A stretch of DNA of 37,239 bases from a virus (IMGVR_UViG_3300029319_006514:1-37239); one strand, 5' to 3'. Numbered from the stretch's first letter, positions 3,152 through 36,631 are shown. Notes: generated by a model from the sequence alone, not told the origin. Translations and numbers: made by a program.

Positions 3152-3498
3152 GAGTCAAAACTTTAGATGATGAGGGACAGAGAGCTGTTGCTGAAATGAT
3201 TGAGAACGGCTATGTTCTCACGGATAAACCGCAAAAGAAGCCTTCTCAAGATGAGATTGTTCCTTTTAATACACCCGCGAAAGAAATTAAGTTGTACAAA
3301 CAACCTCTGCAAAAACTAGTGGACGAAAGAGAGCGATTGCGTTTGAAGTTTACGCCCCGTAATGGTGGAATGGGCGGTATTCCATTGAGTGTTCGTAATC
3401 GTATTGAGAGACTTGAGAAGGTTATTGAGAATAAAGTTAATCTTATTAATGAAGCGATAAAGAAAAATGAGTCTGGCAGCACTAGCGAAGAGTCTTAA
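3148..3498 (+). CDS. Small hypothetical phage protein with C-terminal helix
   Basis: This 116-residue protein is not recognised. The N-terminal half has segment GYVLTDKPQKKPSQDE, followed by a basic stretch ending KFTPRNGG. The C-terminal half, from about residue 80, reads as a long charged helix (NRIERLEKVIENKVNLINEAIKK region) with heptad-like spacing of I/L/V, suggesting a coiled coil. It begins at an ATGA overlap with the preceding gene and overlaps the next oxygenase gene by 32 bases, the longest overlap in this operon. Confidence 0.7.
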   Translation: MRVKTLDDEGQRAVAEMIENGYVLTDKPQKKPSQDEIVPFNTPAKEIKLYKQPLQKLVDERERLRLKFTPRNGGMGGIPLSVRNRIERLEKVIENKVNLINEAIKKNESGSTSEES

Positions 3499-22900: not shown

Positions 22901-23550
22901 CATTAAATGAAAACGTATATTATGAGTTCCCACAACTTGCGGCATCAGCGATCAATGAAACAAATGAGATGGCTGGTGAAAAGTCAATGGAGATTAATTT
23001 GAGTTTGCAAACAGACTTTGAGAACGTATCACCTGTGGTTGATACGGAGAGAATGACTGTATATGCAATCGCAAACAGAGTCAATAAGGTTGATTCTTCA
23101 TCTGATGTGTTCCCGTCTTCGGAGTATGTTCCATCAACAGAACCAGATGGTGACAATAATGAAGCAGTTTATTGCACTAAGAAAGCAACTCTTGCACAAG
23201 CAGCAACTTCACTGAAGGTATTCTTTGCTGCGAACAGAGATAACGAAGCACAGATTAAGGTATTATATAAAATACTACGGTCTGACGATGCAGCTGATTT
23301 TGATGAATTAGGGTGGCGATTCTTTAATGATGGTGAAGCGATACCTGGCTTACCAGATACCGTTACTAACCCATCACTTGGTAGAGATGACTTCCAAGAG
23401 TATTTGTACACTGCTGGTGTAACTGATGATGGTATCGGTGATCCTCTTGATCCATTCATTGCATTTGCGATTAAGATAGTTATGCAAACATCTAACTCTG
23501 CTGAACCACCAAGAATTAAAGACTTTAGAGCAATGGCATTGGCGACATAA
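16948..23550 (+). CDS. Giant DUF4815-type baseplate/tail structural protein
   Basis: This 2200-residue protein begins LNVAPYYDDFNEADNFVRTL and RPGFAIQARELTQLQSVLQN, which I recognise as the DUF4815-type start of large structural proteins in marine T4-like phages, sometimes annotated gp10. GETITG-type modules lie near residues 532, 875 and 908, and one LDGTDANASDSEDN unit near 637. A proline stretch and Asp/Gly run (about 1545-1570) separate the first part from the domain opening DPLAQTFMVDEPGGIFLTS, followed by PVTLEIRNVINGYPG. Near 1850-1880 is a generic phage module, DEIITYQT then ATRGTNGTAAAAHAAGAT. I infer a wedge or pin protein reaching to the fibres; the precise T4 equivalent is uncertain. 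Confidence 0.8.
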   Translation: MPQKTNLNVAPYYDDFNEADNFVRTLFRPGFAIQARELTQLQSVLQNQMEQGFSHLFTDGTMIIPGTVTYSGGKDALRFVKLQPTISGETVELDQFVDADNPVIITGKTSGIKFMVIKVEAATSSDPPTLFGHYVTGNLQGTKDFDPATDTRSFLARIGEVQPLDAAGYDKFVVNEELTASVAIQHGSTAFAIGDVCLKTAETEDLTRSSGQVSGLSALATIREGIYFTRGHFVQVPDQTIIVKKYDSNGISVRIGLRVKEEIVTPETDSTLLDNAQGSSNFAAKGAHRLKITLTLTSIPLGSTDDSDFYEIIRIKDGKTEKFARETDYSIIEETLARRTFDESGNYTVRPFTFQIKESVDVSVGAENFSGAYRVGVTTDRGNVASDNLLALQISTGKAYVKGFEIEKIAPTVIDINKARSFETVNAGVTAFEIGNYVTITNLFNTPDVTFINGETTAFKEIQLYDTAIVTRGDASGTQIGVARARTYQHQSGTAGDEDAVYRLYLFDIRPFTRITLSDTPSPTITSVSTNGGQRVTGNTSGATGFVFGSGTTGTNLILTNVAGTFQAGEKLKLSDSAETDQLIENSSNADLTVDRVVTFTFDQVRSVYMQDPDSGQDFTADIALSSVQTTASFIVLDGTDANASDSEDNIITEQEGIPVSLNPAASGGTGSTVKQAKLEEAEKNLSLFKLAKRPVKTLLTATNNGVSDTQFTIRKQFVATTNSSGAFTISAGANETFVSHSETDYTISILTGGTGSGKQGDIVSASTGFSGAGSTALTVTNNAVFGTGAKLKIMATLLKTSVIQKTKTTKLMKQLKVVSGATDAFGTRPSDKVISLGRADAFRLMAVFEAIDSSTDAVAPTISLTDVNGTFIRGEKITGGSSSATARIINTNTPLSLVYTTGNKTFVVGEKITAESSGATGTVATITLGDKNITENFLFDSGQRDNFYDISRIHRRPGVPAPVGRLLVVYDYLEHSSGDVLTVDSYTDVANQMDYVDIPTYTATKVDPDAPAPTGEFPLYNVFDFRPAVEDAAGTTTDVSLVDEVTGYSLDFFHRQYDGTGSSPNNFLKPGSLVQADYEYYLPKRAVLDLDKEGVFNLNEGEPSEAPALPQMTDGAMKLAELFIPAYTFKPTDVVLRREKNQRFTMKDIGKLQDRIGNLEYYTHLSLLERDAESFEITDANGLNRFKSGFIVDAFQGHRLGDVQHPDYNCAIDQENNELRPKTKNKNVTLIEKFSTDSERANSGYQKTGDLVTLPYDEIVANEQVFATRLERVTPVLLSHWSGNIELSPSGDNWFEVEVAPDLIINQEGNFDTVLAANRDAIGTIWNAWQTQWSGVVQSSSNAWWSGNTLIQRTTQTVRSEQQRTGVQTDVVEKIDLESLGTRVISRAMLPFCRANSISFTGTDFLPNTQLYPFFDRQDVSQFTKPAEGFSTSDASLIFGDALISSPSGKIQGTFDIPDPKVAGNPQFRTGEVNFRLTSSPTNITSKDPLTAGEATYFAAGVLETEQETILATRNAEVVRRDVTDNTVIFSNIIDQRAIETRSPPQPPPAENFDGDAGDDGDDGGDGDPLAQTFMVDEPGGIFLTSCDVFFQARDEILPVTLEIRNVINGYPGPKIMPFARVVKEPSEINLSEDAQTATNFRFRSPVYLQQGFEYCICLLSNSPVYKVWIARMGETELQSTLTETQVGGTATAASNQLFAERTVSEQPAMGVLFKSHNNRTWAPSLLEDLKYTLNRASFNAFSGTFPVVNQENPVKLLEKNPLIFQDGSNVVQVKHRDHQMYSTSNNVTIDNVKSGASTTLASAITNDATSITLSDGTDFDDTTGKFSRDGSNTYFIKIDDEIITYQTISGAAITSATRGTNGTAAAAHAAGATVELYMLHKIPFTEINKTHTALGNIGIDDYTITITTSAVIDGTGVTRAQNGETEVTATENILFDLAQYAISNMTVSGTKIVATKQNTTATSPSGSQTSFVKTAASQAQVIPLNENVYYEFPQLAASAINETNEMAGEKSMEINLSLQTDFENVSPVVDTERMTVYAIANRVNKVDSSSDVFPSSEYVPSTEPDGDNNEAVYCTKKATLAQAATSLKVFFAANRDNEAQIKVLYKILRSDDAADFDELGWRFFNDGEAIPGLPDTVTNPSLGRDDFQEYLYTAGVTDDGIGDPLDPFIAFAIKIVMQTSNSAEPPRIKDFRAMALAT
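17564..17582 (+). other. Perfect 8-bp hairpin inside coding sequence
   Basis: TGACCCGA, the loop AGC and TCGGGTCA form a GC-rich perfect inverted repeat inside the giant DUF4815-type gene. No T-run follows, so it is not a normal terminator. It encodes LTRSSGQ. Confidence 0.6.
18846..18915 (+). repeat. LDGTD-type peptide module in DUF4815-type gene
   Basis: One unit, IVLDGTDANASDSEDNIITE, with the same plan as the units in the gp7-like protein. Confidence 0.75.
21580..21657 (+). repeat. Proline and Asp/Gly-rich low-complexity insert
   Basis: A GC-rich patch encodes PPQPPPAENF and then a run DGDAGDDGDDGGDGD directly before the conserved DPLAQTF domain. GAT-GGT-type triplets repeat. The peptide is highly acidic and could bind calcium or act as a flexible hinge. 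Confidence 0.75.
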
Positions 23551-23779: not shown

Positions 23780-25233
23780 TGGCAACAGTTACAGCATCAT
23801 CAGTAGGAACGGGTGACTCACTCGAAACATTTCGTCAACAATTCAATAGTTTGCGCTCGGATGTTAGTGGATTGTCTTTTGACAGCACCATTATATTTGA
23901 GGGTGCGACTGCAAATGATTTTGAGACAACCTTTTCTGTTACTGATCCAACTGCTGATCGTACTATCACGTTTCCTGATAAAACAGATACCGTGGCTCTT
24001 CTCAGTGACCTTGGAGATAAAGTTTTATTAAACGCGACAGATTCATCTGGTACAGATGCCGGAGATTCTAACGCAAATGACAAAGTTCTTTTCGAGGATG
24101 CGACTGGTGATCATTTAGAGAATCCTGCTGTTCGTGTCGAGGTTGATGTTCTTTTAGAAACCTCAACCTTCGCAAAAGCTGACTTTCTTTTAGATGAGCG
24201 TGATGGTGATAGGATAGAATATGAAAGTGCAACGAATGATGTTCTATTAGGTGCGTTATTTCTTCCACCAGCTGGTGGTGGTCCACAGTTTATCATGCCC
24301 ACTAGTGACGGCGTTGCAAATCAGATTTTAGGAACAGATGGTTCTGGTAACCTCTCTTTCATTAACCAATCTGCGGGATTGTCACTAAACAATGACGGGA
24401 ACAATAGGGTAATCACCGCAACGGGGGCTAACTCTGGTAACGGTGAGGCTAACCTTTTATTTGATGGGTCAACTCTTACGGTCACAGGAAATATCACCGT
24501 TCCTGATGATGGTGACATTGGTTCAGTCAGCGCGACAGATGCGATACAAATTTCTTCTGGTGGTATTGTAACTTTCAAAGATGATATAAAAATTAAAGAC
24601 GGCGGGACGATAGGAACTGCTTCCGATGCAGACGCTATAACGATTGCAGCAGCTGGCGCGGTAACTTTCAGTCAAAGAGATGTTCATAGTAGTGGTATCA
24701 CTATCGCAGACGGTGGTCAAATTGGTTCTGCAAGTGACCTTAACGCTATAACAATATCCTCTGGTGGTGTTGTTGCAATCACAGCAACAACTGCAAACAC
24801 AAGTGCATCAGATGGAGCATTGACTGTTGCCGGTGGTGCGGGTATCGCAGCAGACTTATCAGTCGGCGATGATTTAAGACTTATTTCTGATGACGCGGTT
24901 TTATCCTTCGGTGCTGATAGTGAGATTGCTTTAACACACAATCATAATGTCGGTTTGAAAATTACATCTACTGCTAACGCACCTCTCTCTCGCAGAAGTG
25001 AAGATGTATTCATTGTGCTAAATGGAACGGATGCATCATCCTCTAACGCTGGTGATAATATTATTATAGAAGATGGTGGCACAGACGGAAGCGGTACAAA
25101 TGCTGGCGATGATATTCTTGGTGAGGACGAAGTGTTCCTCATGGCAAACATGCAAAGAAACGTTATTGAAATTCGTGATTCTGGTGGAGCGTTATTGAAC
25201 TCTGTTGCTGGATTTGCGCCAGGAGCAGCGTAA
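23779..25233 (+). CDS. Fibre-like virion protein with DPTADRTIT and LDGTD modules
   Basis: This 484-residue protein opens with GTGDSLETFRQQFNSLRSDV, a helical adaptor-like start, then IIFEGATANDFETTFSVTDP and TADRTITFPDKTD (about 38-70), the same unit as in the protein at 14794. LDGTD-type units lie at about 80-112 and 410-455 (NGTDASSSNAGDNIIIEDGG). The middle is a regular series of units around DGGTIGTASDADAITIAAAG and DGGQIGSASDLNAITISSGG (about 275-335), typical of beta-helical fibres. The extreme C-terminus, NVIEIRDSGGALLNSVAG, is also a common marine phage fibre ending. I infer a tail fibre or fibre segment. Confidence 0.75.
   Translation: MATVTASSVGTGDSLETFRQQFNSLRSDVSGLSFDSTIIFEGATANDFETTFSVTDPTADRTITFPDKTDTVALLSDLGDKVLLNATDSSGTDAGDSNANDKVLFEDATGDHLENPAVRVEVDVLLETSTFAKADFLLDERDGDRIEYESATNDVLLGALFLPPAGGGPQFIMPTSDGVANQILGTDGSGNLSFINQSAGLSLNNDGNNRVITATGANSGNGEANLLFDGSTLTVTGNITVPDDGDIGSVSATDAIQISSGGIVTFKDDIKIKDGGTIGTASDADAITIAAAGAVTFSQRDVHSSGITIADGGQIGSASDLNAITISSGGVVAITATTANTSASDGALTVAGGAGIAADLSVGDDLRLISDDAVLSFGADSEIALTHNHNVGLKITSTANAPLSRRSEDVFIVLNGTDASSSNAGDNIIIEDGGTDGSGTNAGDDILGEDEVFLMANMQRNVIEIRDSGGALLNSVAGFAPGAA
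24016..24115 (+). repeat. LDGTD-type peptide module, fibre-like gene, copy 1
   Basis: VLLNATDSSGTDAGDSNAND followed by KVLFEDATGD: the LDGTD-x-AGD plan with a duplicated polar turn. Confidence 0.72.
25005..25145 (+). repeat. LDGTD-type peptide modules, fibre-like gene, copies 2-3
   Basis: Two adjacent units: VLNGTDASSSNAGDNIIIED and GGTDGSGTNAGDDILGEDE. These are the closest matches in the window to the consensus LDGTD-x-SxNAGD-x-I-x-E. Confidence 0.8.
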
Positions 25234-26192
25234 TGGCAGTTAGAAATCCTTTATACACCGTTAATGGTGATCTGTTTCAAATGAGCACGGGTGAGATTAA
25301 TGAGTGGAGAGAGATGACTCAATTTCAATACTCACAAAATCCAACGGCAGTTCTAACTGTGGTTTCAGATAGTGGTGCAAATATTGATGGTATGGCAGAT
25401 ACCAGATTACAAGCTGGTGCAACCTCTCAAGATAGTACCTCTTTTGTTGCAGAAACATCAACAGCAGAGCCCAGCACTGTTACGGTTAACTTTGATAAGA
25501 TTAACTTTGCGTACACGGCCACAGGTAGTATTAGTCAAACCACAGATACTGGCACAAGTTATCCTGTGTATTATGATGACAGCACGGGTTCTATTCGGTC
25601 AATGACTTTAACTGATCTATTGGATACTTTTATTCATCCTCAAGTTGACAATATGATTTCTGGAACTGAATCTAACTCAACAGCAGGGACGTATACAATA
25701 CACACTGCAACCACGTTGTCTGGTTATACAGAGGTATCTGGGGCAAACACAGCAGTTTTTATTGATACTAGAGCAGACACTTCAGCATATACGGCATCTG
25801 GTATTCCAGAAACACTGGACCAACCAACAACAGTTCAAAATTATTATTTGATGAGAAGAGATGGTGTTGATCCTGGCGCACCTTCTCGCACACCACTGTT
25901 TATTAATAGTAGTAATAATTTACAAGAGTTCACTGCTAGCACCATCAATACTTTACTAGGTGAGTGGTTAAGATTTACAGCCGCACATTCCACAGATGGG
26001 TTTAAGGTGACATTCTCTGTTGGAACATCTGGCAGCGGCAACACCCGTGGGTCAACAATGACAGATACTAAGTTGGATGGTTCGGGTAATTATCAAACTT
26101 TCCAATCTGGTGATGATTATAGATCACAGGAATTTCCGAATGGCTCTGCTGCAACTATCAACTCATATAATCTAAGAATAAATAAGACCTAA
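25233..26192 (+). CDS. Virion structural protein, probably fibre-associated
   Basis: This 319-residue protein opens AVRNPLYTVNGDLFQMSTGE and INEWREMTQFQYSQNPTAVL, which I recall from structural proteins of marine T4-like phages at this position. It contains LTDLLDTFIHPQVDNMI (about 127-143) and YYLMRRDGVDPGAPSRTPLF (about 204-223), and ends in NSYNLRINKT. It is rich in Thr and Ser. There is no signal peptide. It shares one base with the preceding fibre gene and is the last virion gene before the enzyme cassette. The precise part it forms is unknown. Confidence 0.7.
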   Translation: MAVRNPLYTVNGDLFQMSTGEINEWREMTQFQYSQNPTAVLTVVSDSGANIDGMADTRLQAGATSQDSTSFVAETSTAEPSTVTVNFDKINFAYTATGSISQTTDTGTSYPVYYDDSTGSIRSMTLTDLLDTFIHPQVDNMISGTESNSTAGTYTIHTATTLSGYTEVSGANTAVFIDTRADTSAYTASGIPETLDQPTTVQNYYLMRRDGVDPGAPSRTPLFINSSNNLQEFTASTINTLLGEWLRFTAAHSTDGFKVTFSVGTSGSGNTRGSTMTDTKLDGSGNYQTFQSGDDYRSQEFPNGSAATINSYNLRINKT

Positions 26193-26196
26193 ATAA
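26189..26196 (+). promoter_or_regulatory. Late promoter-like element (CTAAATAA)
   Basis: CTAAATAA overlaps the stop of the structural gene and ends 17 bases before the ATG at 26214. GTAGGAGAA follows as ribosome site. It would drive the unknown gene and the first cassette genes. Confidence 0.6.
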
Positions 26197-26213: not shown

Positions 26214-26810
26214 ATGGCATATGAAGGTAAAGAGACTGACGCATACTTTGCAGATGGAACACCAAAGTTTCCGTTTGTTGGCCAGGTGGTGGAAGCATAC
26301 TACACTGATCCAGACTTAAAACATATTTGTATTGTTTATAATTACAAAGTTCCAGAGGATGGTGTTCATACAGACGCACAAGGAAATCCTAATGGTGGAA
26401 AAACTGCGACCACAGTTTATAACATTGAGATTGAAAGTAGCACAGAACCTCGTTTACTTGCTTTACTAGAAGAGTTTAGTTGGGAGTCTATTGATGAATG
26501 CACTCGCTCTAGACATGAAAAACACAGACAAGAATTTAGAGATGCATTTCACCGTTATGCCACACAGAATAATATGTATGGTCATGGTATGGATACAAAC
26601 TTTGATCAGGATGAAGTGCAAGGAAGTTTAAATCTTATATTTGAGTTTGATCCAGAGGACACGGAGCAAAAAGAAGAGTTATTTAAATTGAAATTAAAAA
26701 TGTTTGAGAATGAAGTGGTGAAGAGTAGTAGAAAAAGAAAAGCAAAAACTGAAATTCGTAAAGCGGAGACTCCTATTCAAGCACTTAAAGCGTATGCCTC
26801 ATTCTTCTAA
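26214..26810 (+). CDS. Hypothetical phage protein
   Basis: This 198-residue soluble acidic protein is not recognised. The N-terminal 90 residues look beta-rich (FVGQVVEAYYTDPDLKHICI, ATTVYNIEIES), followed by a helical part with many charges (ECTRSRHEKHRQEFRDAFHR) and a basic segment KSSRKRKAKTEIRKAE near the C-terminus. No catalytic motif is visible. It stands behind its own late promoter between the fibre genes and the carbamoyltransferase, so it could belong to either group. Confidence 0.7.
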   Translation: MAYEGKETDAYFADGTPKFPFVGQVVEAYYTDPDLKHICIVYNYKVPEDGVHTDAQGNPNGGKTATTVYNIEIESSTEPRLLALLEEFSWESIDECTRSRHEKHRQEFRDAFHRYATQNNMYGHGMDTNFDQDEVQGSLNLIFEFDPEDTEQKEELFKLKLKMFENEVVKSSRKRKAKTEIRKAETPIQALKAYASFF

Positions 26811-26824: not shown

Positions 26825-28189
26825 ATGATTGTTTTGGGTATGTCCGAGGGATATCATGATGCTGGGCTATGCATTATAGAAGATAATAAAATACTACATG
26901 CCTCTCAATCGGAGAGATACAGTGGTATTAAAAACGACTCTAAATTACACCATTTACAATTTCCTAAATCAGAAAGATATCAACCAGACGTAACAGCATT
27001 TTACGAAAAACCTTTTCGTAAAAATCTTAGACGTTTGTATGCCGGTCAGTCATGGCAAAAATCATCTCGCAAATGTGATCACTATTTTGGTCACCATGAG
27101 TCACACGCTGCAGCTGGATATTACACATCCTCTTTTGATGACTGTAACATTCTGGTTATTGATGCAATCGGTGAGTGGGATACCATTTCAATATGGGAAG
27201 CAACCACAGAGAAAAAACATTTAGGTCATGTAACTCACAAACTGAAGAAAATAAAGTCTTGGAAATATCCCTATTCTCTTGGACTTCTATATTCTGCGAT
27301 TACGCAATACATTGGTTTTAAACCTAGTGAAGAAGAATATATCACTATGGGTATGGCAGCTTTTGGTGAACCAATTCACGATTTAGAGTTTTTACTTTTT
27401 GAAAATAACCATACTGGAGTGAATTTAAATTTCAAAGCTCGTAGAGAAGACCTTGCTGCATCCGTTCAGGCTTTATATGAGAAAGAACTTCTTAAATTGG
27501 TAGAGATGTGTCCACATGAAAACTTAGTGTTGATGGGCGGATGTGCGTTAAATTGTGTTGCAAATTCAAAGATAAAAGGAAAAAACATTTGGATTATGCC
27601 TGCTGCAAATGACGCGGGAAGTTCATTAGGGGCGGCCGCCTTGGTTAGAAAAAGAAAACTAAAGTGGGATGGTCCGTATCTTGGTCATCAAATTTTAGGG
27701 CGTCCTGATGTAAGTGATATAGTATCTAAATTAATTGATGGTGAGATTGTTGGTGTTGCACATGGGAAAGCAGAATTTGGTCCAAGGGCTCTAGGTAACC
27801 GTTCACTTCTTGCTGATCCTAGAGATGACTCTATGAAAGACAAGGTGAACGAAATTAAGAGAAGACAAAAGTTTCGTCCGTTTGCCCCTGCGATATTAGA
27901 GGAGTATGCAGATGAATACTTTGAGGGGCCGATGAACGAGCATATGCAGTTTGTCGCAAAAGCAAAACATGATTATAGTTCAGTTACACATATTGATGGC
28001 ACGGCCAGAGTACAAGTGGTCAGAAAAAATTGTGGGTCAATCATCAGAGATATTTTAGAGGAGTGGTACGAATGCACTGGTTGCCCAATGCTTCTTAATA
28101 CATCTTTAAATATTAGAGGTAAACCAATGGTCAACACTGTTGATGATGCAAAAGAATTTGAGAAAAAATATAATGTTCAAGTCTTCTAA
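26825..28189 (+). CDS. NodU/CmcH/TobZ-family carbamoyltransferase
   Basis: This 454-residue enzyme should transfer a carbamoyl group from carbamoyl phosphate via a carbamoyl-adenylate to a hydroxyl of a sugar or other small molecule. The Kae1-like half has the metal-site pattern HHESHA (residues 90-95), GGCALNC (238-244) and PAANDAGSSLGAA (259-271). The YrdC-like half has FGPRALGNRSLLADPR (318-333), RPFAPAIL (351-358) and NTSLNIRGKP (425-434). The family is usually longer (about 550-600), so this is a short phage form, but the C-terminal motif is complete. TAGGAG at 26813-26818 is the ribosome site. Related genes occur in marine phages. It overlaps the next gene by 17 bases. Confidence 0.9.
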   Translation: MIVLGMSEGYHDAGLCIIEDNKILHASQSERYSGIKNDSKLHHLQFPKSERYQPDVTAFYEKPFRKNLRRLYAGQSWQKSSRKCDHYFGHHESHAAAGYYTSSFDDCNILVIDAIGEWDTISIWEATTEKKHLGHVTHKLKKIKSWKYPYSLGLLYSAITQYIGFKPSEEEYITMGMAAFGEPIHDLEFLLFENNHTGVNLNFKARREDLAASVQALYEKELLKLVEMCPHENLVLMGGCALNCVANSKIKGKNIWIMPAANDAGSSLGAAALVRKRKLKWDGPYLGHQILGRPDVSDIVSKLIDGEIVGVAHGKAEFGPRALGNRSLLADPRDDSMKDKVNEIKRRQKFRPFAPAILEEYADEYFEGPMNEHMQFVAKAKHDYSSVTHIDGTARVQVVRKNCGSIIRDILEEWYECTGCPMLLNTSLNIRGKPMVNTVDDAKEFEKKYNVQVF

Positions 28190-28973
28190 GAAAAAGTTAA
28201 TTGCTTCTGGTTGTAGTTTTACTGATAGTGTGTATACTTTTAGTCATGGATTTCCTGTGTGGCCAGATATTCTTGGTGAGATGCTTGACATGGAAGTTAT
28301 TAACTTAGGTACATCTGCTCAAGGCAATGAATGTATTTACAGCATGATACTTGATTGTTTGACTAAAGAAGATAATGTGGGCCTAGTCATTCCTATGTGG
28401 TCAGAGAATAGTCGCATGGATTTTGAGGTTCCTCATAGAAAGGACAAAAGAAGAACAAGACCACATATTAAAGAGTGGGATAATATTCAAACTATAAGAG
28501 AGATTCAAGCCTTTTGGAAAAATGTAGTTTCAGATTGTCTAAACGAACATAATTTTGTTGATATGTATGCAAGAACTAAAAGAAGTATGAGATTTATGTA
28601 CTCTTTTCAAGAAGTAATGAAAAGTAAAAATATAAATTATTTACAGATTGTGGGGTGTGGTCTTGAACCAGCGATGTATGAAAATAAATTAGGTAAACTT
28701 GTTTTAGACAATATATATTTTGATTTGATAGATGAAAAATATTTTGTGGGTTGGCCAATGGTTAGCTCAATAGGTGGTAATAATGTTAATGATTTTTTAA
28801 CAAAACTTGATAAAACAAGAATGAAAAATATAATTGACGGCCGTCGTGTGTATAAGGAAGAGGGCGATAAACTGGTGGAAACTCTTAAAGATTCCCACCC
28901 CAACAAGTTAGGTCACGAACAAATAGCAGAGATATTGTACAATGCGTATAAAGAAATTTATGAGGTATCTTAA
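28173..28973 (+). CDS. SGNH/GDSL-type hydrolase
   Basis: This 266-residue protein has the blocks of an SGNH hydrolase: block I LIASGCSFTDS (residues 9-19, nucleophile Ser15 in GCS), block II NLGTSAQGNE (44-53, oxyanion Gly and Asn) and block V DSHPNKLGH (240-248) with the Asp/His pair. Such enzymes remove or transfer acyl groups on sugars, lipids or proteins. The ATG at 28173 is chosen because an earlier start at 28140 would add residues without resemblance to the family and lies within the carbamoyltransferase gene. A deacetylase or acyl-transferase step on the same glycan as the carbamoyltransferase is inference. Confidence 0.82.
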   Translation: MFKSSKKKLIASGCSFTDSVYTFSHGFPVWPDILGEMLDMEVINLGTSAQGNECIYSMILDCLTKEDNVGLVIPMWSENSRMDFEVPHRKDKRRTRPHIKEWDNIQTIREIQAFWKNVVSDCLNEHNFVDMYARTKRSMRFMYSFQEVMKSKNINYLQIVGCGLEPAMYENKLGKLVLDNIYFDLIDEKYFVGWPMVSSIGGNNVNDFLTKLDKTRMKNIIDGRRVYKEEGDKLVETLKDSHPNKLGHEQIAEILYNAYKEIYEVS

Positions 28974-28980
28974 ATTATAT

Positions 28981-28989
28981 CTAAATATT
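28981..28989 (+). promoter_or_regulatory. Late promoter-like element (CTAAATATT)
   Basis: CTAAATATT stands in the only intergenic gap of the cassette (28974-29044) and would serve the five genes from the first glycosyltransferase to 33790. Confidence 0.55.
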
Positions 28990-29044
28990 TTTACTAGTAA
29001 ATTTAGAACATGTGAAAGAACAAACTTTATATATGAGAGGGAAG

Positions 29045-29833
29045 ATGAATAATACAATATTATGCGTTAAGTGGGGTGACAAGTATGGCCGGGAGTACGT
29101 TGAAAAATTAAAAGAACAATGTGAAACATTTTGTTCAGTTCCTTTCAATTTTTACTGCCTGACAGACAATCCAACAGAGGATTATGATATTCAGCTTCCA
29201 ACAGATTGGGATCAATATGAGGGTAAGCATAGTCGTTATAGAAATAAACTAGCACCATCAAACATGTGGGCATATAGAAAACTTTATATGTTTAAGATAA
29301 CTCAAAGAACACAAGGACGCGGTGGATACAATCAGTCAGACATTGATTTCAAAAAGATTGAGGGTGACAAGTTTTTATACCTTGACCTAGACGTTATAAT
29401 ACATAAAGATTTAAAATATTTCTTTGACCTAGATATGGAGCGACCTTGGATTGTTCGTGGTTGGTGGAATGACATAAACGAGTGTCGCAAAAATTATGCG
29501 GCAATGAAATCAACACCAATCAACTCGTCCGTTATTAGATGGGACAGAGGGCAGCTTATAAAGATATACTCTCACATTGTTAATAATTTAGACGTACTAT
29601 TTTTCACATATCCAACTATTGATAATTATCTAAATCATTTTTGGTACAACATGTGGCACGATGACAAGTCTCTTTTTTCAGTTTTTCCAGAGGGAGACAT
29701 TTATTCCTATTATAGAGGGAATATCTGGCCAGATGATTTAGATGAGAAAAAAATAAGAACATCTAATAAAATTTGTTTGTTTAATAATAGTGCAGACACT
29801 AATGATGTTGAGGAGTTAAAATCGTTATGGTAA
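29045..29833 (+). CDS. GT-A-like glycosyltransferase (GT8-like)
   Basis: This 262-residue protein has a typical GT-A layout: N-terminal strand NTILCVKWGDKYGREYVEKL, FNFYCLTDNP (about 35-44), an acceptor-side segment APSNMWAYRKLYMF and the metal/nucleotide-sugar motif LYLDLDVIIH (111-120, DLD 114-116). INSSVIRWDRG (about 160-170) matches the N-S-x-x-[MV] region of GT8-like proteins. The ATG at 29045 has GAGAGGGAAG upstream and places the start as in the related gene at 34616; GTG at 29012 and ATG at 29033 are alternatives. It shares its N-terminal GDKYG-x-EY pattern with that gene, so the two may be distant paralogues. The acceptor is unknown. Confidence 0.75.
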   Translation: MNNTILCVKWGDKYGREYVEKLKEQCETFCSVPFNFYCLTDNPTEDYDIQLPTDWDQYEGKHSRYRNKLAPSNMWAYRKLYMFKITQRTQGRGGYNQSDIDFKKIEGDKFLYLDLDVIIHKDLKYFFDLDMERPWIVRGWWNDINECRKNYAAMKSTPINSSVIRWDRGQLIKIYSHIVNNLDVLFFTYPTIDNYLNHFWYNMWHDDKSLFSVFPEGDIYSYYRGNIWPDDLDEKKIRTSNKICLFNNSADTNDVEELKSLW

Positions 29834-30546
29834 TTTTTGGAGAGGATGGTTATAACTTGCATTTACAATTTACACCAGATTTAGCAAATGATTGGAAGAA
29901 CGCGATGTTCGCTGGTATGTTGTCTTCCGATGAACTTACCACAGGGAACCATCAATACTTACTACAAAGAGTTTTAGATTCTATGAACGCATCCCAGTTA
30001 GAGAGTAAGATGTGGTTAGTGCAAACACTTGTGGAGTTAAAAATAAAACCTAAAAGAGTTGCTTTACTTGCTGGATGGTTTGGACAATATATTGTGCCTT
30101 TGATGTTTGATACGTTCAAAACGTGTGAATGGATCGAAAACTTTGAGATAGATTATGATGTTGCACCTATAAGTTATAAGTTCAACAAGAGGTACAAAGA
30201 TAAAGACATGTACAAAATAAACATGAGAAACATCATGACAAAACCAATGAGAATGAAACCTAATCCCAATCTACCTGTAGAGCCAGAGGATATTTTTGAT
30301 TTGGTAATTAATTGTGCATGTGAACATATGTTCCCTATGTGGAAGTTTAGAGACATGAACGAAAAATATCATGGCCGTCCGTTGTATGTTTTACAATCTT
30401 CAAATGCGACTCAACATGACGATCATATAAATTGTGTCGAGTCTGAGGATGAATTAATTGAACAGGCAAGGATGGTAAACGTATTGTACTCTGGTTCAAA
30501 GATACTTCCAAATAAGAGCACAAGATTTATGGTAATAGGTCAATGA
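29827..30546 (+). CDS. Methyltransferase-like Rossmann protein
   Basis: This 239-residue protein resembles class I methyltransferases in outline: a helical N-terminus, motif I-like PKRVALLAGWFGQYIVPL (about 75-92), an acidic second strand IENFEIDYD (103-111) and DLVINCACEHM (158-168) at the motif IV position. The substrate is not evident. A DNA target is unlikely because no DPPY/NPPY motif is present. GAGGAG lies upstream within the preceding gene, which it overlaps by seven bases; the stop overlaps the next start (ATGA). Loss of activity with retention of fold cannot be excluded because motif I is atypical. Confidence 0.6.
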   Translation: MVIFGEDGYNLHLQFTPDLANDWKNAMFAGMLSSDELTTGNHQYLLQRVLDSMNASQLESKMWLVQTLVELKIKPKRVALLAGWFGQYIVPLMFDTFKTCEWIENFEIDYDVAPISYKFNKRYKDKDMYKINMRNIMTKPMRMKPNPNLPVEPEDIFDLVINCACEHMFPMWKFRDMNEKYHGRPLYVLQSSNATQHDDHINCVESEDELIEQARMVNVLYSGSKILPNKSTRFMVIGQ

Positions 30547-31238
30547 CCCCTGTAGAGTGGGCAAGAAAAAATGATGTATGGTATCTAAAGATTGATTTAG
30601 AAATACCAGAGATTATCATAAAAGAGGCACAAGCGGTATATGATGAGGGTTTCTTTGTTCCACACCGTCTACAAGATGGAGATGAGTGGTGGTCTGCTGC
30701 GATACATGGGTTTGTACATGAGGATGAAATTGATACATCTTTAGGTTGGAGAAACACTATGAATCCAGATGGTCATGGATATAGTGAGGATACTGTAAAA
30801 TGGGGGTGGACTGAAGTTGCTGAGGTTGCTCCAGAGATGAAGAGGTGGTTAGAGGACTTTCCACATAAACACTACAGACGTTGTAGGTTCATGTTGATAA
30901 AACCAGGCGGTAGTATAACTGCACATCATGACGCGGGAGAGAATAGAATAAATTCTGGTAGGCAAAGAAGTTTAGCAGCAGCTATTAACTTAGCAATATA
31001 TCAACCAGAAAATTGTTATTTGAGAAGAGTTGACACAAAAGAGGAATTACCATTTGAAAACTGCACTGGTTTCTGGTTTGACAATGGGGTCACCCATGAG
31101 GCACTGAATAGCTCAGATGAAAATCGTTTCCATTTCATTGTTCATGGTGGATCAAACAAAGAAAGAGTTGAGTTGATGAAAAGGTCAATGGTAAAACAGT
31201 TTGGTATTGGTGTGCTTAAAGAGCTATCCCATGACTAA
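30543..31238 (+). CDS. Aspartyl/asparaginyl beta-hydroxylase-like 2OG oxygenase
   Basis: This 231-residue protein fits the aspartyl/asparaginyl beta-hydroxylase-like family (Pfam PF05118 from memory). RRCRFMLIKPGGSITAHHDA (about 112-131) supplies H128-x-D130; NLAIYQPENCYLR is a core strand; GFWFDNGVTHEALNSSDENR (about 176-195) carries distal H185 and R195 for 2-oxoglutarate, followed by FHFIVHGG. Cellular relatives hydroxylate Asp or Asn side chains in proteins. Here the target is unknown; Asp/Asn-rich turns of the virion modules are one candidate. The gene starts at an ATGA overlap and overlaps the radical SAM gene by eight bases. Confidence 0.82.
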   Translation: MTPVEWARKNDVWYLKIDLEIPEIIIKEAQAVYDEGFFVPHRLQDGDEWWSAAIHGFVHEDEIDTSLGWRNTMNPDGHGYSEDTVKWGWTEVAEVAPEMKRWLEDFPHKHYRRCRFMLIKPGGSITAHHDAGENRINSGRQRSLAAAINLAIYQPENCYLRRVDTKEELPFENCTGFWFDNGVTHEALNSSDENRFHFIVHGGSNKERVELMKRSMVKQFGIGVLKELSHD

Positions 31239-32532
31239 ATTAAAAGATTTAAAATGGTTCTGTCCTCAACCATTTACTAATTATGTTTTGTATAGAGATT
31301 TAGCACCGTCATCTTGTTGTGTATTGAAAGAGTGGCCACGAAATAAAATAAAACGAAAATACAAAACAAATGATCCCAGAAAACTACACAATGAAGCTGA
31401 ATACGCAGATTTTAGAAAAGAGTTTTTGAACGGTGGTGGTCCACTAATAAAGAAACATTGTCAAGTATGCATCGAGCAAGAAAAACATTCGGGCGAAAGT
31501 CATCGAAAAGTTTATCTTGAAAAGTTCATAGGGGAGTATGGTGAGTATAATCAGTATCTAGAAGATTTAGAGAACTACATTGATACAGATATGACAAAAC
31601 CTCATATCTTAACTATGGAGTATGTTGCACCAAATAATTTTTGTAATCTAAGATGTAACATGTGTGGGCCTGGAAACTCCTCATCCTTGGCAAAGGAAAA
31701 TATAGATATTGGATTAACTAATATATTTCAGATGGAAAAATATAAAAATAATCCTTTGCAAAAAATAAAAGACAACGTAGAAAAATATGATGATATTCTT
31801 ATTAATCTGGCTGAATTAAAATTAGTAGGTGGAGAAACGTTAGCAATAAAAAATAATTACGACATGATGCAACGAACCATAGACTTGGGCGTAAGTAAAA
31901 ATATAGTGCTGAAGATTACCACAAACGGCACCCTGACTCCCAAGTTCGATGGTAAAGATATATTTCATTACATCCCATATTTTAGAAGATGCTCTATGAC
32001 GGTATCCATAGAATTTTGGGGTGAGAGAAATAATTATCTAAGGTTCCCATCAAAATGGGATGTGATAATAAACAATGCTAAAAGATTTGTTGAGTGTCCA
32101 AATACAAATGTAACGTTTGCAGCTACAGTAAACGCATTGAACATAGGATACATGCCTGAAATTTCATGTGGTGTTAAGGAGTTAATGAGTGAGTGTGATG
32201 AGCCGTCAGTAAATTTAAAAGAAACTTTTTCATTTCCTAAATGGTCATGGGCTTCTGGAAGTTTAGTGTGGGGTGAGGGAAACGAGTATGCAGTGACAGC
32301 TTTACCATTGGACATTCGTGAGCAATACATGGAAAAATATTTTGACTTTGGGTCGAAGATAATAGAGGATCATAATCATTTTCAAAAGTTGTATGCGTAT
32401 ATGGAAGAGATGCCCTTCGATGAAAAATTACACAAAGAGATGATGACAAATATTCAATTGAGAGATAAACACAGAGGAACTTGTTTGGTTGATATGTTTC
32501 CAGAGTGGGAGCCATACTATGAAAAACTTTGA
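31231..32532 (+). CDS. Radical SAM protein of twitch type
   Basis: This 433-residue enzyme carries the radical SAM 4Fe-4S motif C138-x3-C142-x2-C145 in NNFCNLRCNMCGP, followed by LKLVGGETLAIKN (GGE loop for SAM) and ITTNGTL. An N-terminal extension has WFCPQPF (C11), SSCC (C29, C30) and KKHCQVC (C77, C80), the arrangement of twitch-domain radical SAM proteins that may hold a further cluster or metal. Relatives act in sugar, lipid or peptide modification, but no substrate can be read here. The ATG at 31231 is chosen because an in-frame start at 31201 lies deeper in the previous gene. It lies between a hydroxylase and an unknown protein, all in overlapping frames. Confidence 0.83.
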   Translation: MTKLKDLKWFCPQPFTNYVLYRDLAPSSCCVLKEWPRNKIKRKYKTNDPRKLHNEAEYADFRKEFLNGGGPLIKKHCQVCIEQEKHSGESHRKVYLEKFIGEYGEYNQYLEDLENYIDTDMTKPHILTMEYVAPNNFCNLRCNMCGPGNSSSLAKENIDIGLTNIFQMEKYKNNPLQKIKDNVEKYDDILINLAELKLVGGETLAIKNNYDMMQRTIDLGVSKNIVLKITTNGTLTPKFDGKDIFHYIPYFRRCSMTVSIEFWGERNNYLRFPSKWDVIINNAKRFVECPNTNVTFAATVNALNIGYMPEISCGVKELMSECDEPSVNLKETFSFPKWSWASGSLVWGEGNEYAVTALPLDIREQYMEKYFDFGSKIIEDHNHFQKLYAYMEEMPFDEKLHKEMMTNIQLRDKHRGTCLVDMFPEWEPYYEKL

Positions 32533-33790
32533 TGAATTCAAACATTTGTGGACTAACAATCAAACTAGAAATAGAATTAAATACCCGCACTTAATTTTTA
32601 TAGTAGTATATCCTGATAAGCTTGAGTGGGATTTTGGTGTGGAGAAACAAACACAAACCACCTGTCTACAAATTTCTGGTGGAATGACTGGCGCGGGTAC
32701 AGGCCATGATGTTAAACTGATGTATCAAAGTGAGTTGCATGATTTTTTAAAAACATGCACACAAACTCATGCGATGATTACAACTGTTGGTATGGTGTTT
32801 GAATTGACTGCAACCAAAACATCTATAATGGAGTTTCATGATTTTTCCAAAAGTGATAAGTTTTGCAAAGCACACATCATGGCAAAACCTAATGAGCCTG
32901 CGTGGTTGCACCATCAGCATATTGAATTAAATATAAACATGTGGAAAGAGTTGGGTTGTCCTAATTTATTTACGAAAAAAATATGGAAAGATTATACAAG
33001 GTCAAAACAAAACTACCATGATGACTACACACCATTTTGGTTAGACCCCAAGGGATTGCCTCGTATTCATAATTTTACTGTTGATGAAAGAAGAAATAAA
33101 GCGTTTAGTTATGGACATATGAAAGAACGCAGAGAACTTCATAATCAAACATGGTCAAAAATTAAACTAGGAAAACTTGATGAGGTAGATCGTGAGGATA
33201 ATTATTTTAGTAGATTTATGACTCGTATGAGAGAGACATACTATATCACAAACAATGAGGGTTCAAGTGCGTTCCCTGATTGTAAATTTGATTTAATTAT
33301 AACACCGACTGCTGGTTATACAGGAGAGTTACTGTCAGACGGTTTAGACTTTGATGGAGAAATTATATTTTATGATTATACAAAACAAAACATAGATATC
33401 AAACGAACCATAGTTGAGATGAACATGTCTTCAACGGATTTGAAATATTATGTGAAACAGTCCAAAGCTAATTTTGATACAGGACTGTCATGGGATAAAA
33501 TAGATTCTCTTGTAGAAACACAATCAAAAATGTTGGAAAAATATGACATAGATTATTGGGTGATGAATCTTATAAAACCTGATTATGACAAACTTCTAGA
33601 AAAAGTTAAGGGTAAAAAGGTGTATTTCAACGCAAGTAATATATTTAGCTATCACATGTCTCATGCAGTATACACTTGGGATGAATTGATAGCATCTTAT
33701 AATAAATTGCACCATATTTTGTCCCATGCCAAATCATATTATTTTAGAGGTTCCAATCCCAATAAAAGATGGGAATATATCAATAAATAA
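32519..33790 (+). CDS. Hypothetical protein of modification cassette
   Basis: This 423-residue protein is not confidently recognised. It has an N-terminal region with FIVVYPDKLEWDFG and ISGGMTGAGTGHDVKLMY, a histidine-rich stretch AWLHHQHIELNINMW, and a C-terminal half that looks Rossmann-like: FDLIITPTAGYTGELLSDGL then DGEIIFYDYTKQNIDIKRTI, and later KVYFNASNIFSYHMSHAVYT. The alternation of a glycine-containing turn, strand and acidic residue (FYDY) is compatible with a nucleotide- or SAM-binding fold. The start at 32519 overlaps the radical SAM gene by 14 bases, so the two are likely co-translated and may act together. Confidence 0.65.
   Translation: MKNFDEFKHLWTNNQTRNRIKYPHLIFIVVYPDKLEWDFGVEKQTQTTCLQISGGMTGAGTGHDVKLMYQSELHDFLKTCTQTHAMITTVGMVFELTATKTSIMEFHDFSKSDKFCKAHIMAKPNEPAWLHHQHIELNINMWKELGCPNLFTKKIWKDYTRSKQNYHDDYTPFWLDPKGLPRIHNFTVDERRNKAFSYGHMKERRELHNQTWSKIKLGKLDEVDREDNYFSRFMTRMRETYYITNNEGSSAFPDCKFDLIITPTAGYTGELLSDGLDFDGEIIFYDYTKQNIDIKRTIVEMNMSSTDLKYYVKQSKANFDTGLSWDKIDSLVETQSKMLEKYDIDYWVMNLIKPDYDKLLEKVKGKKVYFNASNIFSYHMSHAVYTWDELIASYNKLHHILSHAKSYYFRGSNPNKRWEYINK
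33782..33789 (+). promoter_or_regulatory. Weak late promoter-like element (AATAAATA)
   Basis: AATAAATA overlaps the stop of the preceding gene and ends 6 bases before the ATG at 33795, too close for a normal leader. It is only a possible promoter. Confidence 0.25.
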
Positions 33791-33794
33791 TATC

Positions 33795-34619
33795 ATGTTA
33801 AAGTTAGGTAATAAGTATGAAGAGCTAAACGAAAAGTATGATTGTAACGGTCATTACGAGAAAAAACTTGACGAAAATTTTCTTGAGTTTACTTTGGAAG
33901 AGTTGGGTATGCCTTCAGCAGAAAAGTTGTATGAGCAAACACTAAAAATAGTTGACGAGATTGGTGGTATAAAAGGGTGGCAGAGAGACAACAAAGAGTC
34001 TGAAAAATACAAGGGGTTTAGTATTTGTATAAATCCAAACGGGGATGATCATCTACAAAGTCCATACGCAAGTCTTGGTCATCCAAAACTAAACTGGGCG
34101 TATGGTAGATTATCTAACCCTAATCCACCTTGGCAACATGATAGAGATACCTATTATGACACTTATGGATTTTCTACAGTTCATCCAGTGGTAGAAAAAC
34201 ACTATGGTGAGTTTCTAAATTGTGTGGATTTATTACCAACTAGATCAAGAGTGATGTGGGCATATCCTGGCCATGAACAGAAATGGCATGTGGATGAAAT
34301 TTCTCACACCGCGTTTAGGTTTAATATACCACTCGTCACAGAACCCTCATATGTGTTAGAAATTGATGGGGCAGACGATTGGGGTAATACACTGCAAATG
34401 ACAAAACATTTAGAGGTTGGCAAAGCATATTTCTGGAACACAAAAATACAACACAGGGTCAGGGAAACTGGCGGTGCGAAAGAACCAAGAGTTCATATCG
34501 TTGTTGGTTTCATACCTTGGTTTGAGAAAGATGGAGATGATTGGAAACCTAATAAATATTTTGGTATACAACCCATAGATATGATAAGATCAAAAATGAT
34601 CTTTCCTTATGCGCCATGA
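33795..34619 (+). CDS. 2OG-Fe(II) oxygenase, aspartyl hydroxylase-like
   Basis: This 274-residue protein has a clear dioxygenase core: RVMWAYPGHEQKWHVDEISH (about 152-171) with H165-x-D167, FRFNIPLVTEPSYVLEIDG, GKAYFWNTKIQHRV with distal H220, and EPRVHIVVGF with R232 for 2-oxoglutarate. The N-terminal 150 residues are a family-specific extension with FSICINPNGDDHLQSP and PPWQHDRDTYYDTYG. The best comparison is to aspartyl/asparaginyl hydroxylase-like enzymes, but it is not a close copy of the gene at 30543. No ribosome site is visible before 33795; an in-frame ATG at 33726 would add 23 residues overlapping the previous gene. Its stop overlaps the next start (ATGA). Confidence 0.8.
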   Translation: MLKLGNKYEELNEKYDCNGHYEKKLDENFLEFTLEELGMPSAEKLYEQTLKIVDEIGGIKGWQRDNKESEKYKGFSICINPNGDDHLQSPYASLGHPKLNWAYGRLSNPNPPWQHDRDTYYDTYGFSTVHPVVEKHYGEFLNCVDLLPTRSRVMWAYPGHEQKWHVDEISHTAFRFNIPLVTEPSYVLEIDGADDWGNTLQMTKHLEVGKAYFWNTKIQHRVRETGGAKEPRVHIVVGFIPWFEKDGDDWKPNKYFGIQPIDMIRSKMIFPYAP

Positions 34620-35317
34620 AAATATTTGCAGTTAGAATAGGTGATAAGTACGGACCAGAGTATGAAACGTATCTAGAGAAAAAACTTTCAGATTACGAGA
34701 TGGTTTGGATACGAGAGCCATATGTATCTACAGTTGCTTTACAATGGAACAAGATGTGGGCAATGCAATTAGATATTGATGAACCGATTTGCATAATGGA
34801 TATTGATGTTCTTTTAGTCAACGACTACAAAAAAGTTTTTGAGTATCCTGTCGAGCGTGGTCAGTTTGTTGCTATGCCTGGTTGGTGGAGAGATACAAAA
34901 AAAGAAGGATATTCTATAAACGGTGGATTTTTCAAATATCATCCAAAGGACTGTAAATATATCTACGATAAATTTATGTCGGATGTTAATGGGTGGCAAC
35001 AATATTATATTAATAACGGAGTGACAAATGGGCCGGTAAATGGAGAACAGTATTTTGTGGAAGACTCTGTTAAAGAGAGACTTGAACTTATCACGTTACC
35101 TAATGAGTGGTTTACACGTTGGGTCACTGGGACAGATATAAATTATGGAAAGAGCATGTTTAAATGGAACGTGCAATTGACAAGAAAGTACAGAGAGCTT
35201 ACAGGGAATGAATATGTTTGTTTGGGGGATGAGTTTCATCCAGATATAAAATTTGTTCATTTTACACACCGAATGAATAAACCGCACGAATGGGAACACT
35301 ATGCAGACAACATTTGA
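34616..35317 (+). CDS. GT-A-like glycosyltransferase (GT8-like), second copy
   Basis: This 233-residue protein starts KIFAVRIGDKYGPEYETYLE, much like the start of the transferase at 29045. ALQWNKMWAMQLDIDEPICI and MDIDVLLVND (61-70; DID 62-64) give the metal/nucleotide-sugar motif; YSINGGFFKYHP (about 99-110) matches the acceptor-side loop with N-G; FVHFTHRMNKPHEW near the C-terminus has the His region of GT8-like enzymes. Sugar donor and acceptor are unknown. It starts at an ATGA overlap with the 2OG oxygenase and overlaps the acetyltransferase by 17 bases, so the three genes form a tight unit. Confidence 0.75.
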   Translation: MKIFAVRIGDKYGPEYETYLEKKLSDYEMVWIREPYVSTVALQWNKMWAMQLDIDEPICIMDIDVLLVNDYKKVFEYPVERGQFVAMPGWWRDTKKEGYSINGGFFKYHPKDCKYIYDKFMSDVNGWQQYYINNGVTNGPVNGEQYFVEDSVKERLELITLPNEWFTRWVTGTDINYGKSMFKWNVQLTRKYRELTGNEYVCLGDEFHPDIKFVHFTHRMNKPHEWEHYADNI

Positions 35318-35792
35318 TTTTGTAGAAGAGATTAGTTTCGAGGAAATCAAAGAGGTGTGGGAGAAAGAGTTGTGGCCAAATAAGAAGAATGGGGTTGCAA
35401 AAGCAAATGAGTGGACATGGTATTGGTTACAAAAAGAACTTGGTAAAGATAAACAAATGTCAAAGGATGCGGAGCCCACGTTTGTTGGTATTAGGTCTAA
35501 TGATGAATTAGTTGCTGTAAATAGTTGTTACTATAGTAACTCAAAAGGTATATTTAATTATTGGAGATCAAGAGGATTGTGGGTTCACCCAAATTTTAGA
35601 GGACAGAAATATTCTTCAGTCATACTCACTTGGTGCTTAGAACACGCAAAACTAAAAGGCGGTCACTGGATGTGGACAGTCCCTAGACAAAGTGCAATGC
35701 CTGCTTATAAAAGTGTGGGGTTCACTCAAGAGTCAGATTGGTTTGATGATGGTCAGTTTGGTCCTAACTGTATCGCATCCAAATACTTATAA
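35301..35792 (+). CDS. GNAT-family N-acetyltransferase
   Basis: This 163-residue protein fits the GNAT fold that transfers an acetyl group from acetyl-CoA to an amine. FVGIRSNDELVAVNSCYY (61-78) is the beta2-beta3 hairpin, SRGLWVHPNFRGQKYSS (90-106) is motif A with the pyrophosphate-binding R-G-Q-K loop, and AMPAYKSVGFTQESDW (motif B) is present near the C-terminus. The substrate is unknown; an amino sugar made or attached by the neighbouring transferases is a reasonable candidate. It is the last cassette gene, and its stop is adjacent to the late promoter of the neck genes. Confidence 0.85.
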   Translation: MQTTFDFVEEISFEEIKEVWEKELWPNKKNGVAKANEWTWYWLQKELGKDKQMSKDAEPTFVGIRSNDELVAVNSCYYSNSKGIFNYWRSRGLWVHPNFRGQKYSSVILTWCLEHAKLKGGHWMWTVPRQSAMPAYKSVGFTQESDWFDDGQFGPNCIASKYL

Positions 35793-35795
35793 ATA
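35788..35795 (+). promoter_or_regulatory. T4-type late promoter (TATAAATA) before gp13
   Basis: A perfect TATAAATA overlaps the end of the acetyltransferase gene and ends 20 bases before the gp13 start. AAGGAG at 35803-35808 is a strong ribosome site. Confidence 0.85.
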
Positions 35796-35815: not shown

Positions 35816-36631
35816 ATGGCAGTTCCCTCAACAAAGGCAACTCTGAAGTCATATTGTCTTAGAGCATTGGGTAGTGGGGTTATTGACATAAACGTGTCTG
35901 ATGACCAAATTGACGATAGACTTGACGAGGCTCTTCAATACTTTGCAGAATATCATTATGATGGTGTGGAAAGAATGTATCTTAAACACAAGATCACATC
36001 TGATGATATCAGTAGAGCAACAACTGATGCATCAGAGGTTGCCACAGATACCGCTGATAATTCTGTCACTGCGACATGGTTAGAGGGTAAAGGTTTTATC
36101 CCTGTGCCTGAAGCTGTAATATCTGTGGTGAGTGTGTTTCCTTTTACAGACAGCACAACCGCAAACATGTTTGACCTTAGATATCAATTACGTCTAAATG
36201 ACCTTTATGATTTTTCCTCAACGTCAATCATGGAATATGAGATGACACTGAAACACCTAGATTTCTTGGAGCATGTTTTGGTTGGAGAAGTTCCTATCAG
36301 ATTTAGTCAACACCAACAGAGACTTTATTTAGATATGGATTGGAACAATGATATTAAAGTGGACGAGTTTATAATTATTGAGTGTTACAGAAAACTTGAC
36401 CCAACAACATACACAGATGTTTTCAACGACATGTATCTAAAGAGATATGCAACCGCGTTGATAAAAAGACAGTGGGGTGCTAACCTTTCCAAATTCAACG
36501 GTGTGTCTATGTTAGGTGGTGTTACTATGAATGGGGGAGACATTTACTCACAGGCTCAAGAGGAACTAGAAAAATTAGAAGAACAAATTCAACTCGCATT
36601 TGAGTTACCAGTAAACTACATGATAGGATAA
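35816..36631 (+). CDS. 13: Neck protein gp13
   Basis: This 271-residue protein is the neck/head-completion protein gp13 of T4-like phages, which joins the filled head to the tail with gp14 and gp15. AVPSTKATLKSYCLRALGSG and DDQIDDRLDEALQYFAEYHY near the N-terminus are the family's marked start; LYDFSSTSIMEYEMTLKHLD, YLDMDWNNDIKVDEFIIIEC and KRYATALIKRQWGANLSKFN form the core, and the C-terminal helix ends AFELPVNYMIG. The length is slightly below T4 gp13 (309). gp14 follows by four bases. Confidence 0.92.
   Translation: MAVPSTKATLKSYCLRALGSGVIDINVSDDQIDDRLDEALQYFAEYHYDGVERMYLKHKITSDDISRATTDASEVATDTADNSVTATWLEGKGFIPVPEAVISVVSVFPFTDSTTANMFDLRYQLRLNDLYDFSSTSIMEYEMTLKHLDFLEHVLVGEVPIRFSQHQQRLYLDMDWNNDIKVDEFIIIECYRKLDPTTYTDVFNDMYLKRYATALIKRQWGANLSKFNGVSMLGGVTMNGGDIYSQAQEELEKLEEQIQLAFELPVNYMIG

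Follow-up and report, generated by a model that had tools for sequence, protein, structure and literature searches.

The host recognition cluster (HRC) of the pelagimyophages, as described by Zaragoza-Solas et al. (2020), is a nonsyntenic region whose glycosyltransferases were assigned to the O-chain of lipopolysaccharide (LPS), and an Asp/Asn hydroxylase is given as core to these phages (PMC7029224). In mycobacteriophages, glycans occur on the capsid and the tail tube (Freeman 2023, as cited in PMC12619734). This analysis concerns a ten-gene modification cassette at positions 26825-35792 of IMGVR_UViG_3300029319_006514:1-37239, an IMG/VR virus record of 37,239 bases from an uncultured marine phage. 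From this point on, we refer to this whole stretch of DNA as the window. The cassette occupies the location of the HRC, and five of its genes, together with the gene of a tail-fibre-slot protein designated s1, form an ordered arrangement that recurs in relatives.

A ten-gene cassette in the tail-gene region

The window carries uvsX, a gp5-type lysozyme gene, baseplate genes, gp8, the gene of a VrlC-like protein (2200 amino acids, aa) and the neck gene gp13. The closest gp13 is that of the Pelagibacter phage HTVC008M (65% identity), followed by those of the methylotroph phage Melnitz (63.5%) and of Mosig (62%), and on account of these nearest relatives the window phage is classified by sequence as a pelagimyophage-like T4 relative. 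The cassette island lies between the VrlC-like gene (16948-23550) and gp13 (35816), which is the placement of the HRC. As the sequence-only reading had proposed, 26825-35792 is filled by ten open reading frames (ORFs) on one strand, mostly overlapping. There are 11 junctions between s2 and gp13, of which seven are overlaps of 4-17 nucleotides (nt) and the others are gaps of 4, 14, 23 and 71 nt; the starts given below for B (28173), C (29045) and H (33795) are probable start codons. The features, all on the plus strand, are as follows (SAM, S-adenosylmethionine; pLDDT, predicted local distance difference test).

25233..26192, plus: s1, 319-aa protein of the tail-fibre slot, candidate acceptor (position, linkage; AlphaFold2 pLDDT 90)
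26178..26195, plus: ATAAATA and CTAAATA late-promoter-like motifs upstream of s2, at 26178 and 26189 (motif)
26214..26810, plus: s2, 198-aa protein that always adjoins s1 in cassette-bearing contigs
26825..28189, plus: A, O-carbamoyltransferase of the NodU/TobZ/GdmN family, swappable extra (Pfam)
28173..28973, plus: B, SGNH/GDSL-like hydrolase or acyltransferase, swappable extra (weak profile, conserved blocks)
28981..28987, plus: CTAAATA late-promoter-like motif upstream of C (motif)
29045..29833, plus: C, GT8-like glycosyltransferase with DxD, core (weak profile, motif)
29827..30546, plus: D, methyltransferase-like protein, core, also in the Mosig-type cassette (motifs, Mosig homologue)
30543..31238, plus: E, Asp/Asn beta-hydroxylase family PF05118, core (Pfam, residues)
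31231..32532, plus: F, twitch-domain radical SAM protein, swappable extra (NF033640, motif)
32519..33790, plus: G, orphan with a GT-A-like N-terminal domain (no DxD) and a SAM-methyltransferase-like C-terminal domain, core (AlphaFold2, fold search)
33795..34619, plus: H, probable Fe(II)/2-oxoglutarate oxygenase, swappable extra (motif)
34616..35317, plus: I, GT-A-like glycosyltransferase with DxD, core (motif, profile comparison)
35301..35792, plus: J, GNAT acetyltransferase, frequent extra (Pfam)
35788..35795, plus: TATAAATA late-promoter-like motif upstream of gp13 (motif)
35816..36631, plus: gp13 neck protein, right cassette boundary (profile and comparison with cultured phages)

A syntenic core in relatives

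Relatives were collected by IMG/VR scans with G, F, A, I and E, to which a few phage records were added, giving 280 sequences that fell into 116 clusters once those sharing exact 400-base stretches had been merged. Interval counts were taken over the 28 dereplicated clusters in which the whole stretch from s2 through gp13 is covered. D, G and I are present in all 28 intervals, C and E in 26, and the order C-D-E-G-I is constant: it is complete in 22, lacks C in two, lacks E in two and has one gene doubled in two. The extras are far more variable (J in 21 intervals, B in 15, F in 14, A in 13, H in nine), and other genes are inserted in relatives, including a second Asp hydroxylase (f28), a 2-oxoglutarate (2OG) oxygenase (f41), a split radical SAM pair (f15-f23), APH-like and APS-kinase-like proteins (f25 and f36) and a methyltransferase-like protein (f60). 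Nonsyntenic content, as described for the HRC, is thus not seen in the core; the extras do vary.

Within the same clusters, median identity to the window is 73% for E and 75% for I, as compared with 72-73% for gp13, and the ratio of nonsynonymous to synonymous substitution rates (dN/dS) of E and I is 0.05-0.06, indicative of purifying selection; G, D and B are less conserved than E and I. Gene-distance correlations are positive for nearly all pairs, and no particular target stands out. The cassette is thus real and more than a chance collection, because its content and order are kept in 28 dereplicated intervals and its genes are under purifying selection. Homologues scattered singly would have spoken against the sequence-only reading; the opposite, strong ordered co-occurrence, was found.

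I is single-copy in seven of seven long contigs. Among 50,697 deposited phage records nothing matches E, G or I, and a search with I of approximately 85,000 prokaryotic genomes returned one match only, itself a phage contig in a metagenome-assembled genome (L280), so that a bacterial origin was rejected.

Linkage to s1

Because retrieval with cassette genes favours loci that carry them, an s1-only scan was added. Across all scans, 73 dereplicated copies of s1 were obtained, 61 of them testable in having at least 6 kb of downstream sequence. Both D and I lie downstream of s1 in 53 of the 61 loci, on the same strand in 41 and on the opposite strand in 12. Among the remaining eight, the sequence stops short of I in four, two show a rearrangement beside gp8, and two (L288 and L291) read s1-s2-J-gp13.

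The 12 opposite-strand loci are of the Mosig type. In Mosig, the order is s1 (Mosig_00097), epimerase and s2, followed on the other strand by B, a DegT aminotransferase, A, D, a GT8-like protein and I, the last being 26% identical to its window homologue. At the corresponding place HTVC008M and Melnitz have neither s1 nor such a cassette, and carry other structural genes instead. Near relatives that are cassette-minus, with s1-s2 and then J and gp13, were seen from L286:7031-7987, L288:1775-2731 and L291:1489-2445 onward.

Late-promoter-like motifs

Motifs of the T4 late type stand upstream of s2, C and gp13, in agreement with the late-type promoters claimed by the sequence-only reading. Throughout the window, 13 of 19 such motifs are just upstream of gene starts, against 1.2 expected, and all four TATAAATA sites are located 10-80 nt 5' of a start (uniform expectation, 0.2). 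Counts of sigma-70 promoters are near chance, and those of terminators are below it.

Assignment of the cassette proteins

By sequence, A can be assigned with certainty as an O-carbamoyltransferase related to NovN, GdmN and TobZ, as both domains are matched (PF02543 at the N-terminus, 2.7e-35; PF16861 at the C-terminus, 1.1e-51). Profile matches make three other family assignments secure: E to PF05118 (3.9e-9, 37 bits against a cut-off of 22.6), F to the twitch-type radical SAM proteins (NF033640, 3.8e-69, 233.7 bits against a cut-off of 170) and J to GNAT (7.6e-10, above cut-off). The predicted iron and 2-oxoglutarate residues of E, H128-x-D130...H185 and R195, are at least 95% conserved in 65 sequences, and the cysteines of F, C138-x3-C142-x2-C145, are conserved in 68. 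H matches no Pfam family, and its pattern H165-x-D167...H220...R232 is invariant in 24 sequences.

The matches of B and C are sub-threshold, at 8e-4 and 20.2 bits to the GDSL profile (cut-off 27) and at E = 0.003 and 17.6 bits to GT8 (cut-off 24.3), respectively. B, which sits directly 3' of A wherever A is present, has conserved G-x-S (Ser15) and His-Pro (His242) blocks. The DxD motifs of C (D114/D116; 60 sequences) and I (D62/D64; 96 sequences) are at least 95% conserved; I has no GT8 Pfam match, and the profiles of the two proteins align weakly with each other. C and I may act in a GT8-like manner, though outside the GT8 profile cut-off. The methyltransferase label of D derives from motifs and from the annotation of its Mosig homologue; a check for class I SAM methyltransferase profiles found no Pfam match for D and a weak one (E = 0.039) for that homologue. 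Profile searches with E, D, I, G and s1 gave no usable match among PDB sequences, and F likewise has no PDB sequence match.

G has no profile match. Its AlphaFold2 model, built from a 43-sequence alignment, has a pLDDT of 92 and suggests a probable two-domain, GT-A/methyltransferase-like protein. The C-terminal half (residues ~216-423) resembles SAM methyltransferases with Z of 9-11.5 in a VIA-align comparison that covered mainly residues 216-423. For the N-terminal part, Foldseek against PDB returned the GT-A proteins LARGE1, LH3, GlyE and mimivirus R699 at E of approximately 1e-4 with low template-modelling (TM) scores, and a GT-A domain in residues 1-215 is also suggested by a distant member of the family (L009), which has a VVFDADTE motif at the aligned place. 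Full-length structural matches are uncharacterised phage proteins (BFVD, E = 5e-24, TM 0.73), and a profile comparison of G with C shows no similarity.

The sequence-only reading is partly supported. Its carbamoyl and acetyl transfer, one of its two hydroxylases and its radical SAM enzyme correspond to A, J, E and F, all above cut-off. Glycosyl transfer retains the conserved DxD of C and I, with profiles that are below cut-off or unmatched; deacylation by B retains the Ser and His blocks while missing the GDSL cut-off; methyl transfer by D and a second hydroxylase in H retain their motifs, in neither case with a Pfam match. The probable two-domain nature of G had been overlooked, and no complete pathway could be made out, as only C, D, E, G and I behave as one block, the presence of A, B, F, H and J differing from cassette to cassette.

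Related genes outside the core arrangement

In marine phages that have nothing else of the cassette (L037-L057), a carbamoyltransferase gene is immediately followed by one or two SGNH-like genes; A-B therefore looks like a mobile pair. In large phage contigs of 50-340 kb, a carbamoyltransferase gene is preceded by three to five tandem radical SAM genes of the twitch type (L065:480-7586, L082:1324-8409, L085:1390-8493 and L095:3891-9040), with only distant similarity (20-25% identity) to the family in the window. Oxygenase genes occur elsewhere too. Two window genes between uvsX and the lysozyme gene (2325-2897 and 3467-4162) match 2OG-Fe(II) oxygenase PHROGs (phrog_61 and phrog_81), and in HTVC008M (L355:21443-23682) the place that the cassette has in the window, directly before gp13, is taken by four 2OG-Fe(II)/phytanoyl-type dioxygenase genes on the opposite strand.

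Related cassettes also include, on the opposite strand, two copies of f18, with a sulfotransferase-like P-loop motif, the APH-type kinase f25 and the APS-kinase-like f36 (L008:9344-11260 and L240:16059-16523). f18 has no Pfam or PDB sequence match, and the three families are a possible sulfation add-on. Tandem copies of f26, of approximately 100 aa, stand at the end of some cassettes (L008:12109-13027), in Mosig-type loci too, and are possibly a substrate. A DctP-type TRAP solute-binding protein (PF03480, 3e-44), unexpected for a phage, is encoded within the modification region of related phages (L008:13315-14259).

Interpretation

We favour, with a probability of roughly 0.5, the reading that the cassette is a late, cytosolic glycan-modification module of marine T4-like phages whose likeliest acceptor is a virion protein, with s1 as the prime candidate. 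In the scheme that we infer, from its reactions and their order to its target, and with a timing taken from the promoter-like motifs only, C, I and the GT-A/methyltransferase-like G would assemble a short glycan from host nucleotide sugars, D would methylate this glycan, and E would hydroxylate an acceptor side chain. The exchangeable extras would tune the glycan, A by carbamoylation, B by acyl editing, J by acetylation, H by further hydroxylation and F by a radical SAM step. With a virion protein of the tail-fibre slot as acceptor, part of the host-contact or shielding surface would be enzyme-made. Glycan chemistry is suggested because the glycosyltransferase-like proteins are invariant, the tailoring enzymes are variable, and nucleotide-sugar enzymes occur in the sister type. 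A virion-protein acceptor is favoured by position, late motifs and the linkage to s1, and a protein acceptor would fit because the family of E includes protein hydroxylases. LARGE1, LH3 and mimivirus R699, returned for the N-terminal part of G, are themselves glycosyltransferases of proteins. The constant core order, the purifying selection, the conserved predicted catalytic residues, the absence of transmembrane-like segments and the mycobacteriophage precedent also speak for the reading.

Several points weigh against this reading. The assignments of C, D and I are weak at the profile level, and the GT-A reading of G has low TM scores. Mosig-type cassettes are without E and G, which leaves D and I as the most widely shared pair. 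In L288 and L291 the core is missing between s2 and J, and s1 is therefore not always in need of it. Searches of PDB and BFVD with the s1 model gave no credible fold match, and the proposed virion role of s1 thus rests on position. Finally, PF05118 also contains LpxO-type lipid A hydroxylases, which would fit an envelope target.

Such a target defines the main alternative, possible though appreciably less probable, in which the enzymes alter the envelope of the infected host (LPS core or O-chain, lipid A), for instance preventing sticking to debris or excluding competitor phages. Besides the LpxO-type enzymes, it can draw on the GT8-like nature of C, on the carbamoyl, acetyl and methyl groups that surface glycans commonly bear, and on the APH- and APS-kinase-like proteins added in related cassettes. 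In addition, glycosyltransferases of the region have been published as LPS-directed, GT8 members being mostly LPS enzymes (PMC7029224). However, the ten proteins are all devoid of transmembrane-like segments on hydropathy over 19 residues and include no flippase or polymerase, and the membrane flippase and membrane-anchored glycosyltransferases that mark Gtr-type LPS serotype conversion are not among them. The late-type promoter motifs also argue against it, and both the linkage to s1 and the absence of the cassette where s1 is absent would stay unexplained.

A peptide pathway of the RiPP (ribosomally synthesized and post-translationally modified peptide) kind, or a small-molecule pathway, in which a short peptide or metabolite would be the substrate of the radical SAM protein, the hydroxylases and the tailoring enzymes, appears improbable. 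The radical SAM family of F is weakly similar to a RiPP maturase model, the hydroxylases are accompanied by a carbamoyltransferase of an antibiotic-tailoring type, and some relatives have the tandem f26 proteins near the cassette. The packed window cassette, however, has no precursor-like ORF and no f26, and F is missing from half of the complete cassettes. Still less probable is a reading in which accessory genes that act independently and share no function have come together in a hypervariable island. The turnover of A, B, F, H and J would agree with it, as would the publication of the region as a nonsyntenic island (PMC7029224), and it may hold for single extras; for the core it is largely refuted, and was rejected, on the near-universal and invariantly ordered C, D, E, G and I in 28 intervals and on E and I being as conserved as gp13. 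Least probable of all is DNA base hypermodification against restriction, of which phage glycosyltransferases and radical SAM enzymes are capable (Pyle 2024, as cited in PMC12619734), but which was rejected because of the late structural position and late motifs, the former also favouring the virion or surface target that the sequence-only reading had preferred to DNA, and because no supporting synthase was found, the thymidylate-synthase family (PF00303) being unmatched in seven long, possibly incomplete relatives, while restriction-modification is reported in only 1 of >100 genomes of SAR11 (PMC7029224), which may not be the host of the window phage.

Returning to virion glycan modification, the core is kept about as strictly as the essential neck gene, which suggests a role in the production of infectious particles and not that of an optional metabolic extra. 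A bolder version, which we consider unlikely, is that a large uncultured clade of ocean T4-like phages has, in place of long tail-fibre genes, a small carrier, s1, with a surface that enzymes hydroxylate and glycosylate. Host contact or shielding would be governed by the exchangeable tailoring enzymes (carbamoyl, acetyl, methyl, radical SAM), and host recognition would then reside in glycan chemistry and not in fibre sequence. If modification of the virion is correct, what has been catalogued as a hypervariable LPS island would turn into a pathway of virion modification that is open to testing, and the cultured Mosig offers its sister form. Phages of this type are widespread among marine virus contigs.

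Comparison with known systems

The function proposed here is that of the mycobacteriophage system, in which phage-encoded glycosyltransferases decorate virion proteins; there it is experimental, here inferred, and the account cited in PMC12619734 names no hydroxylase, carbamoyl or radical SAM tailoring. LH3 and mimivirus R699, of the collagen-type system, are among the best PDB matches of the GT-A-like part of G, and that system likewise pairs a hydroxylase with glycosyltransferases. This is a likeness of fold only, at low TM; unlike them, G has no DxD and has a methyltransferase-like domain, and the hydroxylase of the cassette is a separate protein of another family. A is homologous to NovN, GdmN, TobZ and NodU over both domains, but is phage-encoded, shorter (454 aa) and paired with an SGNH-like gene.

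The Pelagibacter phage Mosig (EXVC030M, MT647606), whose host is HTCC1062, is similar in having homologues of A, B, D and I beside gp8, VrlC, s1 and s2. It differs in that its cassette is on the opposite strand, with an epimerase, a DegT aminotransferase and GT8 in place of E and G, and identities are 22-32%. The HRC has the same location from VrlC to the neck gene, glycosyltransferases including GT8, radical SAM cassettes and an Asp/Asn hydroxylase. The region itself was thus already known; no description of the fixed core, of G or of the s1 link was found in the open-licence literature. In contrast to the HRC as published, the type found in the window has a strictly ordered C-D-E-G-I linked to s1, together with a new, probably two-domain protein, G.

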